From Spirochaetota bacterium (GTDB lineage Bacteria > Spirochaetota > Spirochaetia > Treponematales > UBA12059), in contig JAKPPT010000020.1 in the NCBI GenBank assembly GCA_029547205.1, forward strand, positions 124,001-188,000: a stretch of 64,000 nucleotides of DNA, in the 5' to 3' direction. The position numbers and the translations under genes were made by a program. Of this stretch, positions 14,873-50,689 are shown piece by piece. The notes under the pieces are model-generated. The model saw nothing but the letters and a program-made list of their open reading frames with translations, made no database searches and was not told the origin of the DNA. How positions within the stretch are numbered: position 1 is the first letter of the stretch; the number at the start of each line of letters is the position of its first letter.

Positions 14873-15985
14873 ATGAAAACAACAAAACTTGCTGCTGTTT
14901 TGTTTTCCAGAATTGCAGATTTTGATTCACTACTCAATTCTAATGAGCAGCAGGCTCTTCAGATTCTCGCACTCTACAGAGGTTTGTTGGATTCTATTAT
15001 TGCTGAACACGAAGGAACATGTTTTGATAAAACAGGCGATGAGTATTTATTGATTTTTTCCAGCTCAGTACATGCAGTGCAATTTGCACTCCATGCAACG
15101 CTTGCTGTTGATACCTATAACAAGAATTGCTCAGATACCAGTAAGAATTTCAAGCTCTGTATCGGGATACATTTAGGAGAAATTTGGCAGGAAGAACTGC
15201 ATGTATATGGAAATGGTATCAACATTGCTGCACGTGTAATGCAGGCAGCACAGCCAGGTATGATTGTAATTTCTGAAGATGTTGAACGCCAGATTGCAAA
15301 CAAATTGGATATACGCTGTTCTCGCTATCAGCATGAAACGCTTAAAAACATAGAGCGCCCTTTAGTTTTATATGCAATCAATATTAAGGATGAGCATACA
15401 ACACTAACAAACATCATACAAAAACCATCTGTTCAGGTAGATGAATCAACACAGTTGAAAGCATCACTAAGACAAGATGAAAAACTTGTACCACCTCAGA
15501 GGATAAGTCGGCCACCGCACGATGCTGATAGTGATGAACTGCGTGATGCCATACAGAATATGGTAAGAAACGCAATAAACAATAGTATGCTAGCAATGAA
15601 ATATGCAGAAAAATATCCTGAAAATTCTGTTACCGTTACTGATAAAGCAATAGAATTAAAAAACGGAAATGCAGTAAAAAAAATAAAGAGAAAGAGCAAG
15701 AGACCAAGAAACAAACCCCTTATGAATACAGACGAAGCATTACAGGATGAGCTTGCAGTAACTCGTGGAACACTCATTGGAGCAATTCTCAAATCCCTTG
15801 CCGCGTTAGGTGCAGGGGCAGGTTTAGGATACCTGTATCTTTCATCAAAAAATTGGTTCTGGCTTGCTGCTGCTATTATTGCAGGATTTTTTCCAACACT
15901 AAGTTCTCTCAAGGCAATAAGGAAGAGCATAGAGAAAATTGTGCATATAAAGCAAGAGCTAAAAGCCGATCGCAGAAAAAAGTAG
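14873..15985 (+). CDS. Class III nucleotide cyclase-like protein, probably degenerate
   Basis: 370 residues. Residues 5-190 form a class III adenylate/guanylate cyclase homology domain: GDEYLLIFSS near 55, GIHLGEIW and YGNGINIAARVMQAAQPG. The first metal-binding Asp is missing: the expected F-x-D-I is FSRI (Arg13), while Asp56 is kept. Catalysis is therefore doubtful and the domain may only bind nucleotide. Residues 190-290 are charged linker; two hydrophobic segments (about 300-340) anchor the C-terminus, an order (cyclase first, membrane last) unlike most receptor cyclases. Confidence 0.68.
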   Translation: MKTTKLAAVLFSRIADFDSLLNSNEQQALQILALYRGLLDSIIAEHEGTCFDKTGDEYLLIFSSSVHAVQFALHATLAVDTYNKNCSDTSKNFKLCIGIHLGEIWQEELHVYGNGINIAARVMQAAQPGMIVISEDVERQIANKLDIRCSRYQHETLKNIERPLVLYAINIKDEHTTLTNIIQKPSVQVDESTQLKASLRQDEKLVPPQRISRPPHDADSDELRDAIQNMVRNAINNSMLAMKYAEKYPENSVTVTDKAIELKNGNAVKKIKRKSKRPRNKPLMNTDEALQDELAVTRGTLIGAILKSLAALGAGAGLGYLYLSSKNWFWLAAAIIAGFFPTLSSLKAIRKSIEKIVHIKQELKADRRKK

Positions 15986-16008
15986 ACAAACATAGAAACT
16001 TTCACACG

Positions 16009-16036
16009 TAGTTCAAAGAAAGTTTTGAACTATTTT
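16009..16036 (+). terminator. Weak AT-rich terminator after the cyclase gene
   Basis: TAGTTCAAA (16009-16017) pairs with TTTGAACTA (16024-16032) around a six-base loop, followed by TTTT. It precedes a new promoter by three bases. Confidence 0.6.
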
Positions 16037-16038
16037 CC

Positions 16039-16067
16039 TTGACCAAAGCACCTTTTAATACTATAAT
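16039..16067 (+). promoter_or_regulatory. Strong sigma-70 promoter
   Basis: TTGACC (16039-16044), a 17-base spacer and a perfect TATAAT (16062-16067). It predicts a transcript starting near 16074, about 437 bases before the rny start codon. Confidence 0.8.
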
Positions 16068-16073
16068 GCTATT

Positions 16074-16400
16074 TATGGGGTAATGTTGTCGTATGTTTTT
16101 GCATACGCTAACAACATAGTACTCTTATAAAAGTATACATGTTCATAATTTTGAACATGAGATTCTACAGAAGTTCGGAATTGTCTGGTTATTGATACAT
16201 ACTTTATTGCAGTATTTTTACTGCAATAAAGATATAAAACCTGCAAGCAGGTTTACTTTCCATGGGTGGTACTATGGAAGCATATAGGTTTGAAGGGTAT
16301 ACATTACCATGATGTATAGCATAGAGTTTAAAGCATATATACGCATGGGTGACATCCAGTCAATAAACTGTTGGAAGCCCCCATGTTGTTACTACAAAGC
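16074..16400 (+). ncRNA. Candidate multi-hairpin structured RNA upstream of rny
   Basis: No credible gene lies between 15986 and 16510. From the predicted start, ATGGGG (16075-16080) can pair with CCCCAT (16379-16384), closing a region of consecutive hairpins: TGTTGT/ACAACA with inner CGTATG/CATACG (16084-16115); CATGTTCA/TGAACATG (16138-16159); CTTTATTGCAGTA/TACTGCAATAAAG (16202-16231); AAACCTGC/GCAGGTTT (16237-16254); TTCCAT/ATGGAA (16258-16279); TATACAT/ATGTATA (16298-16318). It shows no signature of tmRNA, RNase P, SRP or 6S RNA that I can recognise. It may be a free RNA or a long 5' leader of rny. Boundaries are approximate. Confidence 0.5.
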
Positions 16401-16510
16401 TTCTTTTCTCCATACCTATAACAAACGATAACCATTTCTGAATCTTCCTGTAGAGTATACGTTCTCATGATGATTAGTAGGGGGTAATCCCCGTGATGCA
16501 GGAGGAGCTA

Positions 16511-18037
16511 ATGGTATTACTGTATATTCTATTGCCTCTTGCTGGAGGGTTTCTTGGATGGATAGCGCGATGGCTCTATGCAAAAATGCAGTTGACATCT
16601 GCAGAACAGCGAGCACAGCGCATTCTCACTGAAGCACAGAAGCAGGCAGAAGCACAAAAGAAGGAAATGCTGGTCGAGGCAAAGGACCAGATAATTCGAG
16701 AAAGAAATCAGCAGGAACGTGAAAACCGCGAGTGGAGAGCCGAAATACAGCGGTATGAACGCAGACTGATACAAAAAGAAGAAAATCTAGATAAAAAAAT
16801 TGAAATGATTGAACGGCAGGAACAGAGCCTTCAGGATCGCATTAAAGCTCTCGCTCAAAAAGAAGCTGTTCTTGCAAATCAAGAAGCTGAGTACATGAAA
16901 AAATTGGAGCATGTTGCTCAGATGAACCAGCAGGATGCTAAAGCGCTCCTGATACAGACAATGGAAAGCGAAGCAAAACGCGATGCTCAGGCACTGATTA
17001 ACAAAATCGAGCAGGAGTCCCAGCTCAATTCAGAAAAACGAGCACGTGAAATACTCGTGACAACAATTCAGCGTTTAGCTACAGAAGTAACCAATGAAGT
17101 GACTATTACGAGCGTTAACCTTCCAAACGATGAGATGAAAGGTCGTATCATCGGACGTGAGGGAAGAAATATTCGTACCCTGGAAACGCTCATTGGTGTT
17201 GACATTATCGTTGATGACACACCAGAAGCAGTGGTAATTTCCTCGTTCGATCCGGTGCGTAGGGAAATTGCACGCATTGTGCTTGAGCGGCTCATAATTG
17301 ATGGACGAATCCATCCTGCACGAATCGAAGAAGTCGTTCAAAAGGTCAACAAAGAAATATCGCAGAAAATTTTTGAAGAAGGTGAAAAAGTTGTCTTTGA
17401 TCTTGGTATTCATAATATGAATCCAGAGTTGATCAGAGCGCTCGGACGGCTGTACTTTAGAACGAGCTATGGCCAGAATGTACTCATGCATTCAAAGGAA
17501 GTTGCCGTTATCGCTGGTATGCTTGCTGCTGAACTTGGCTGCAATAGAGAAATAGCTAAGCGCGGAGCATTGCTTCACGACATTGGTAAGGGTATTGAGA
17601 CAGATTCTGATCAAAACCATGCAGAAATTGGTATGGAAATGGCTCGAAAGCTGGGCGAAGACCCGCGAGTAGTCAATGCTATTGGATCGCATCACAACGA
17701 TGTCGAGCCGATATGCCTTGAGAGTGTGCTCTGTCAGATAGCAGATGCAATTTCGGCAGCTCGCCCTGGTGCCCGGCGTGAAACATTGGATAATTATATC
17801 AAACGTCTGGAAAATCTCGAAGGAATTGCAGAAGGATTTACCGGTGTTGATAAGGCATATGCAATACAAGCGGGTAGGGAGCTCAGAATTCTTGTCAATA
17901 ATGAGCAAATTTCCGATGACCAGGCTAAAGAGCTTGCTCGCGATATTGCTAAGAAAATTGAATCGGATCTCAAATATCCGGGAAGAATAAAAGTTACCTT
18001 GATTCGCGAAACACGAATTATTGAGTATGCGCGCTAG
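16511..18037 (+). CDS. rny: Ribonuclease Y
   Basis: 508 residues from the ATG at 16511, chosen because AGGAGG (16500-16505) lies five bases upstream; the ATG at 16496 precedes that site. It has one N-terminal membrane helix (LLYILLPLAGGFLGWIARWLY), a coiled coil to about residue 190, a KH domain (GRIIGREGRNIRTLE) and an HD domain with HDIGKGIE. RNase Y is the membrane-bound endonuclease that starts mRNA decay in bacteria lacking RNase E. A GGGG/CCCC hairpin lies just upstream of the ribosome site. Confidence 0.96.
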   Translation: MVLLYILLPLAGGFLGWIARWLYAKMQLTSAEQRAQRILTEAQKQAEAQKKEMLVEAKDQIIRERNQQERENREWRAEIQRYERRLIQKEENLDKKIEMIERQEQSLQDRIKALAQKEAVLANQEAEYMKKLEHVAQMNQQDAKALLIQTMESEAKRDAQALINKIEQESQLNSEKRAREILVTTIQRLATEVTNEVTITSVNLPNDEMKGRIIGREGRNIRTLETLIGVDIIVDDTPEAVVISSFDPVRREIARIVLERLIIDGRIHPARIEEVVQKVNKEISQKIFEEGEKVVFDLGIHNMNPELIRALGRLYFRTSYGQNVLMHSKEVAVIAGMLAAELGCNREIAKRGALLHDIGKGIETDSDQNHAEIGMEMARKLGEDPRVVNAIGSHHNDVEPICLESVLCQIADAISAARPGARRETLDNYIKRLENLEGIAEGFTGVDKAYAIQAGRELRILVNNEQISDDQAKELARDIAKKIESDLKYPGRIKVTLIRETRIIEYAR

Positions 18038-18204: not shown

Positions 18205-19002
18205 ATGGATACAGATACTGCAATTCGCATAGTCATGTTAGGTGATGTTGTAGGTCAAAAAGCATGTGATACCGTCGCAGCAGCTTTGCAGTCGATTCGT
18301 AAAAAATTTAAGGCCGATTTTATCGTTATCAATGCTGAAAATGTTGATAACGGTGGGGGACTGAGCCCTAATGATGCGCGGCTCTTATTTGAATCGGGTG
18401 CTGATTGCATAACATCGGGTAATCATATTTGGGATAGAAAAGATTATGAGGATCTATTCGAACTCTCTGGAGTTTTGCGGCCAATTAATTATGCAGCGGA
18501 ACTACCAGGAAGCGGAGTTTTTATCTGTGAGCGAAATGATAAGATATTAGGTGTAATCAATGCACAGGGTATCCGTGATATGATACCAATTCTCAATCCA
18601 TTTGATTGTGTAAAAACTGCAGCTCAACAGCTCAAAGAAAAATATGCCACGAAAAATACTGCACTCCTGGTAGATTTTCACGCTGAATCATTCGGCGAAA
18701 AAGAAGCCCTGGCTTGGTACCTTGATGGAGATATTTCAGCATTTATTGGAACTCACACGCATGTTCAGACTGCAGATGAGAAAATCTTACCAAAAGGGAC
18801 TGGATATCTTGGTGATGTTGGCATGTGCGGAGTGCTTGACACGGTTATTGGGTTTAATGCTGATATATCAGTCGAGCGAGCACGGAATAATACTAATATT
18901 CCAATGACAGTAGCAGAAGGAAAGATATCACTGTGTGGGGTCTATCTGGAAATACAGGGGTTCGCCTGTAAAACAATCCAGCCTTTTGTACTGCCTGTAT
19001 AA
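18205..19002 (+). CDS. ymdB: YmdB-family metallophosphoesterase
   Basis: 265 residues, the normal size. Metal-binding motifs: MLGDVVGQ near the start, NAENVDNGGGLSP, TSGNHIWD, DFHAE and GTHTHVQTAD. The family (TIGR00282) hydrolyses 2',3'-cyclic nucleotides in Bacillus and is commonly located beside rny, as here. TATGAT (18188-18193) lies 11 bases before the ATG with no good ribosome site, so the mRNA leader is very short. Confidence 0.92.
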   Translation: MDTDTAIRIVMLGDVVGQKACDTVAAALQSIRKKFKADFIVINAENVDNGGGLSPNDARLLFESGADCITSGNHIWDRKDYEDLFELSGVLRPINYAAELPGSGVFICERNDKILGVINAQGIRDMIPILNPFDCVKTAAQQLKEKYATKNTALLVDFHAESFGEKEALAWYLDGDISAFIGTHTHVQTADEKILPKGTGYLGDVGMCGVLDTVIGFNADISVERARNNTNIPMTVAEGKISLCGVYLEIQGFACKTIQPFVLPV

Positions 19003-19021: not shown

Positions 19022-19049
19022 AAAAGACTACCTCGTGCGGTAGTCTTTT
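19022..19049. terminator. Bidirectional terminator between ymdB and rpmE
   Basis: AAAAGACTACC (19022-19032) pairs with GGTAGTCTTTT (19039-19049), with A and T tracts on both sides, so it can end both convergent transcripts. Confidence 0.88.
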
Positions 19050-19075
19050 CCGTATCAAGAACAAGAAAATAGGTC

Positions 19076-50588: not shown

Positions 50589-50597
50589 GCAGGTGTC

Positions 50598-50689
50598 GTG
50601 GGGTGGTTCGTGAATGAGCCTGAGATTATACCCGTTGAACCTGATCCGGATAATGCCGGCGAAGGGATTCTGACGTACTCATTCCCCAC
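50598..50689 (+). ncRNA. TPP riboswitch (THI element)
   Basis: P1 pairs GTGGGG (50598-50603) with CCCCAC (50684-50689). The core contains CTGAGATTATACCC (50620-50633) and TGAACCTGATCCGGATAATG from 50636, then GCCGGCGAAGGGA, an almost perfect THI-box consensus. Downstream, a GCCT/AGGC hairpin lies just before the AAGGAG of ykoE, so translation control is likely. Confidence 0.97.

Follow-up and report, generated by a model that had tools for sequence, protein, structure and literature searches.

The question raised by this locus is what can be ascribed to a gene-free block of hairpins that lies between a near-consensus promoter and rny, the gene for RNase Y, in a spirochaete genome. The window, that is, the whole stretch of 64 kb that was analysed, is contained in a 205-kb contig of an assembly of 2.65 Mb (151 contigs, 99.6% complete), and the relatives used for comparison are Treponematales MAGs and isolates. 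On the + strand the order of elements is a cyclase-domain gene, a T-tailed hairpin, the promoter, the hairpin block, rny and ymdB. The rny gene (16511-18037; Pfam RNase_Y_N, KH_1 and HD) starts at ATG 16511, as set by the normally spaced Shine-Dalgarno sequence CAGGAGG and by the alignment to relatives (MAILYIALPLAG...), which is 15-18 nt downstream of the ATG or GTG that an ORF finder would choose. It is followed by a gene for a YmdB-like phosphoesterase (18205-19002; Pfam YmdB), and the strong inverted repeat AAAAGACTACC/GGTAGTCTTTT at 19024-19050, between ymdB and the convergent genes downstream, is probably a bidirectional terminator. The nucleotide-cyclase-domain gene (14873-15985; Pfam Guanylate_cyc) lies directly 5' of the rny promoter; several relatives carry another gene at this position, which, judged by eye, is either RNA-binding-protein-like on the opposite strand or RluD-like.

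The promoter consists of TTGACC (16039-16044), a 17-nt spacer and TATAAT (16062-16067), and with 11 of 12 consensus matches it is the best site within 14.8-16.8 kb, so that its description as a textbook promoter in the original prediction is borne out. It also follows a terminator-like element, as had been stated: a 9-bp hairpin (16009-16032) with a T-rich tail reaching 16036 is seen in the sequence and the hairpin list 3' of the cyclase gene, although its stem is too G+C-poor for detection by the terminator scan. The promoter used for rny across the order is TTGACA-N16-TATAAT, and the family relatives have TTTTCTTGACAAAG-N-CTATAATG 5' of rny where this genome has TTTTCCTTGACCAAAG-N-CTATAATG. 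This comparison identifies the promoter at 16039, which is homologous to that of the family relatives, as the order's conserved rny promoter in an upstream-displaced position. The displacement is large: in about 100 of ~107 rny genes, counted in distinct genomes across the order, the distance from the -10 box to the start codon is 22-64 nt, whereas it is 443 nt here. As measured by these distances, the rny leader is enlarged specifically in this lineage.

The consensus scan gave neither a + strand terminator nor a second promoter between 16067 and the rny start. The assignment of the hairpin block as the 5' untranslated leader of the rny mRNA is well supported by sequence, because the conserved rny promoter lies 5' of it and neither element intervenes. 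With the transcription start placed at about 16074 from the position of the -10 box, the putative leader comprises ~437 nt (16074-16510), and we infer that leader and rny form one transcription unit. Of the two readings first offered for the block, a large rny leader is thus the one that is well supported, and a new noncoding RNA driven by a dedicated promoter loses likelihood, since this promoter is that of rny. Two further candidates were rejected for the leader: a hidden protein or leader peptide, as the longest AUG frame encodes only 40 aa, is preceded by a weak ribosome site and matches nothing in Pfam, and a transcription attenuator, as the consensus scan gave no + strand terminator within it.

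The predicted structure of the leader is strong by every comparison made. The segment 16068-16420 has a minimum free energy (MFE) of −108.8 kcal/mol (z −6.1; none of 100 shuffles equal), and the whole leader reaches −142.2 kcal/mol with z of about −7 to −8 relative to shuffled copies. In a G+C-corrected ranking of 300-nt tiles on both strands of the one 205-kb contig, which represents ~8% of the genome, the tile at 16001 takes the first rank at −5.6 sd, and the runner-up, at a different place, reaches −3.4 sd. Perfect hairpins, defined by a stem of 7 or more and a loop of 3-8, number up to 5 per 353-nt stretch in the block and at most 3 elsewhere in the window, where more than 95% of such stretches contain 0-1; the inverted-repeat density is therefore above that of the rest of the window, as had been noticed. 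The antisense strand is strongly folded too (z −5.7 to −6.7), which means that a part of the structure signal is simply that of inverted repeats in the DNA. The computed leader energy, −142 kcal/mol for the sense and −122 kcal/mol for the antisense strand, favours the sense strand, with both strands far from random. The strand test by pair counts gave 14 vs 9 G-U pairs and 1 vs 2 A-C mismatches.

In the predicted architecture, two stacked helices of 7 bp each form a hairpin near the 5' end (16083-16117; mean pair probability 0.95 and 0.99), and a hairpin of 8 bp comes next (16138-16159; hairpin list and pair probabilities). They are followed by a core domain of 295 nt (16162-16456), whose ends are joined by a long-range helix of 19 pairs, 16162-16180/16436-16456 (mean pair probability 0.94); a 9-pair helix, 16186-16194/16426-16434 (0.97), lies inside it. 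Within the core, the hairpin list and pair probabilities give a perfect 13-bp hairpin, CTTTATTGCAGTA/TACTGCAATAAAG, at 16202-16231 and a perfect 7-bp hairpin at 16237-16254; an 8-bp hairpin at 16258-16279 is given by the pair probabilities. A sub-domain (16283-16420) closed by 16283-16292/16411-16420 then encloses the hairpins 16296-16320 (~10 bp) and 16343-16386. Seven hairpins, from 16083-16117 through 16343-16386, have a mean pair probability of at least 0.93 each in the full-leader ensemble, in agreement with the original prediction of at least six in a row, one of them of 13 pairs. The enclosure of the block by ATGGGG (16075) and CCCCAT (16379), which was part of the same prediction, has a pair probability of ~0, and the closure is instead that of the 19-pair helix. 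The hairpin block is confirmed as a predicted structure, but its end had been set too short at 16400: the domain ends at ~16456, ~55 nt further. Predicted single-stranded gaps rich in A/U are located at 16146-16151, 16181-16185, 16335-16340, 16403-16407 and 16421-16425.

The first helix of the leader MFE fold starts at the inferred start nucleotide. Since paired 5' ends slow 5'-end-dependent decay, this position is what would be expected if the 5' hairpins were a stabiliser shielding the rny mRNA from decay at its 5' end, and not a feedback device. Such a role would require a single hairpin and leaves the 295-nt core unexplained, and we consider it improbable.

The leader was compared with known RNA classes and with other genomes. 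Rfam 15 gave no match to the leader, either at the gathering score or at E up to 10, other than chance matches, mostly to eukaryotic RNAs; the first reading had likewise not recognised the class. A TPP riboswitch is present in the window at 50589-50684 (+ strand, 61.3 bits). tmRNA was rejected as an identity of the block, as ARAGORN gave no match in the window and both tmRNA and RNase P RNA are located elsewhere in the genome. The block gave no DNA homologue elsewhere in the genome that carries it, among 59 near relatives or among 394 genomes of the order; in the order-wide search, only the block itself appeared at E < 1e-4, and the best other matches were chance matches of 25-46 bases. The plasmid and phage collections contained no copy of the block, and no relative of rny was found in viral contigs. 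The leader is, by these searches, an orphan in sequence, and it does not represent a conserved structured RNA class, with no homologue in the genus (one genome), the family or the 394 genomes of the order.

The absence of the block from all relatives would also be explained if it were a functionless insertion tolerated between promoter and rny, such as the remnant of a mobile element or repeats grown by slippage. The folding of the antisense strand is in line with this explanation, as are imperfect ends that resemble a target duplication (GGGGTAAT at 16077 and 16481). Against it, chance alone should produce about one repeat of 8 bases, the block has no terminal inverted repeat and no open frame, and no second copy exists in the genome, the relatives, the plasmids or the phages. 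In addition, old long-range helices that are neutral would decay, and here they are intact. A mobile element or MITE was rejected on the same features (single copy, no terminal inverted repeat, a direct repeat of only 8 bases), and a functionless insertion as a whole is regarded as unlikely.

The core domain can be viewed in another manner, because it folds strongly alone (z −7.3) behind its 19-pair closing helix and is separated by ~40 nt from the ribosome-binding site, whose accessibility differs little between the full leader and most of its truncations. These properties are consistent with a discrete, stable noncoding RNA that RNase Y, perhaps, cuts out of the leader and that works in trans or together with a protein; rny would then be no more than the gene next to it. 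Such an RNA would share the promoter of rny and would lack a terminator of its own. Furthermore, no copy or relative of it occurs anywhere searched, whereas the known large noncoding RNAs are, to our knowledge, conserved across species. OLE, GOLLD, ROOL and HEARO resemble the leader in having hundreds of bases, many nested helices and no protein; unlike the leader, for which neither Rfam nor the 394 genomes gave a match, they are conserved in many species and included in Rfam. On balance, the noncoding RNA is judged rather unlikely. A related proposal, that the 295-nt core is released from the rny leader as a sensor or sponge of RNase Y or as a trans-acting RNA, and is one of several structured rny leaders that evolved independently in spirochaete lineages, is distinctly unlikely in our estimation.

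The 3' end of the leader and the beginning of rny form a separate predicted structure. The hairpin across the ribosome-binding site (16498-16542) is composed of GCAGGAGG/CCTCTTGC and TAATGG/CTATTG, with pair probabilities of 0.53 and 0.72, where the Shine-Dalgarno sequence and the bases upstream of it can pair with rny codons ~8-11 (the LPLAG region). An equivalent helix, with letters that change together, is AGTAGGGGG/CCTCTTACT in family f4 and genus g9 and CGGTAAGGGG/CCTCTTGCCG in family f5. When arms were swapped between genomes, the native arms paired better (mean duplex −16.4 vs −14.8; below all 300 permutations), a difference to which common ancestry contributes. In comparison with shuffled coding arms, f5 gives a strong signal for the helix (mean z −2.6), f1 a moderate one (−1.7) and f4 and f3 weak ones, and that of the window itself is modest, being equalled by 10% of the coding-arm shuffles. 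In f5, the Shine-Dalgarno/codon 8-11 helix is very strong and the coding strand CCTCCCTCTTGCCGGG is nearly invariant.

The location of the ribosome-binding site in a predicted hairpin would be compatible with a riboswitch-like leader, responsive to a ligand or to temperature, in which alternative pairing would control the translation of rny. Alternative partners can be found, as TAACAACAT (16109) can pair with either ATGTTGT (16083) or ATGTTGTTA (16383), but the probability predicted for these alternatives is low. No interaction between the core and the hairpin at the ribosome site is seen in the ensemble, and no Rfam riboswitch and nothing conserved is found in the leader; a riboswitch-like function is thus very doubtful. 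Across several truncations of the leader, the accessibility of the Shine-Dalgarno sequence varies from 0.23 to 0.68 with no simple trend.

The reading to which we give about an even chance is that the leader is a cis element by which RNase Y limits its own mRNA, and this is proposed by analogy with better-known decay nucleases. Neither RNase J (TIGR00649) nor RNase E/G (TIGR00757) had a family match in the whole 99.6%-complete genome, and, because of this, RNase Y is probably the main decay endonuclease and the enzyme with which RNA decay begins in this organism, and its dosage is probably important. In B. subtilis, RNase Y keeps its own mRNA in check through cuts in the 164-nt leader and in the first 100 nt of the frame, RNase J acts after the leader has been cleaved, and the context that RNase Y is reported to prefer is A/U-rich single strands flanked by structure (PMC10303841). 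A structure over the ribosome-binding site that is comparable to the one predicted here, reaching codon 13, is also described for B. subtilis rny (PMC10303841). For E. coli, autoregulation of RNase E via a stem-loop in its own leader is among the work cited in PMC10303841.

In the proposed mechanism, transcription would begin near 16074 from the conserved rny promoter and would produce, in order, the two 5' hairpins, the nested domain 16162-16456 and the ribosome-binding site in the modest hairpin 16498-16542. The leader would serve as a folded platform on which short A/U-rich single-stranded gaps lie beside stable helices. When RNase Y is in excess, it would bind or cleave its own leader and the level of rny mRNA would fall; when RNase Y is occupied by other RNA, the rny mRNA would survive. 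Both the recognition of the leader by RNase Y and the feedback on rny are drawn from the analogy.

The likeness to the B. subtilis leader consists of the same gene, a long leader behind a promoter of the sigma-70 type, a predicted ribosome-site structure that extends into the first codons, and A/U-rich single strands next to hairpins. The two leaders differ in length (164 nt vs ~437 nt here) and have no known sequence relation. Moreover, RNase J finishes the job in B. subtilis, and as RNase J was not found in this genome, that step cannot operate here and the mechanism would not be identical. The E. coli rne leader (rne5) is likewise long, hairpin-rich and attached to the gene for a main decay endonuclease; it belongs to a different enzyme, and the leader analysed here gave no match to the rne5 model or to any other in Rfam (gathering score or E up to 10), with no conserved stem-loop identified.

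Most relatives have an rny leader of 30-60 nt, which means that a long leader is not needed for the control of rny in general. Longer leaders occur elsewhere in the order. In genus g3, the rny leader is ~150 nt (z −3.9 and −2.6), with a predicted fold common to both species. This compact fold, seen in L010 and L011, lies ~82 nt after the rny -10 box; its outer helix, ATTGC/GCAAT, encloses the hairpins TACAAGTT/AACTTGTA and TCCC/GGGA, and Rfam contains no match to the fold. When the g3 leader was turned into a covariance model, only the two g3 genomes among 294 matched, and a shared origin with the present leader was rejected, as the model gives nothing significant on 16074-16510. In the RNase Y tree, g1 is on a long branch, and the tree does not settle whether g1 and g3 are sisters. 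A third structured leader belongs to L039, a Treponema sp. MAG, with 158 nt, three strong hairpins and z −5.0. Further rny leaders of 77-112 nt are weakly structured.

The three structured rny leaders, those of this genome, g3 and L039, look unrelated. The recurrence of structured leaders at rny is circumstantial evidence for function, not proof. The leader described here is a genuine, strongly structured and lineage-specific feature, for which a function is suggested by analogy. If it controls RNase Y, a spirochaete that gave no match to RNase E/G or RNase J would join E. coli (RNase E) and B. subtilis (RNase Y) as a case of autoregulation of the central decay nuclease, and such control would have been rebuilt from RNA structures that are not related. 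The rny leader appears to have been lengthened in at least three lineages of the order, with different folds and with the promoter fixed, which leads to the testable idea that RNase genes repeatedly gain sacrificial structured leaders. A neighbour without a structured leader is known at least for L039, whose sister L046 has an rny leader of 38 nt, and L039 and L046 constitute a natural before/after pair for leader expansion.
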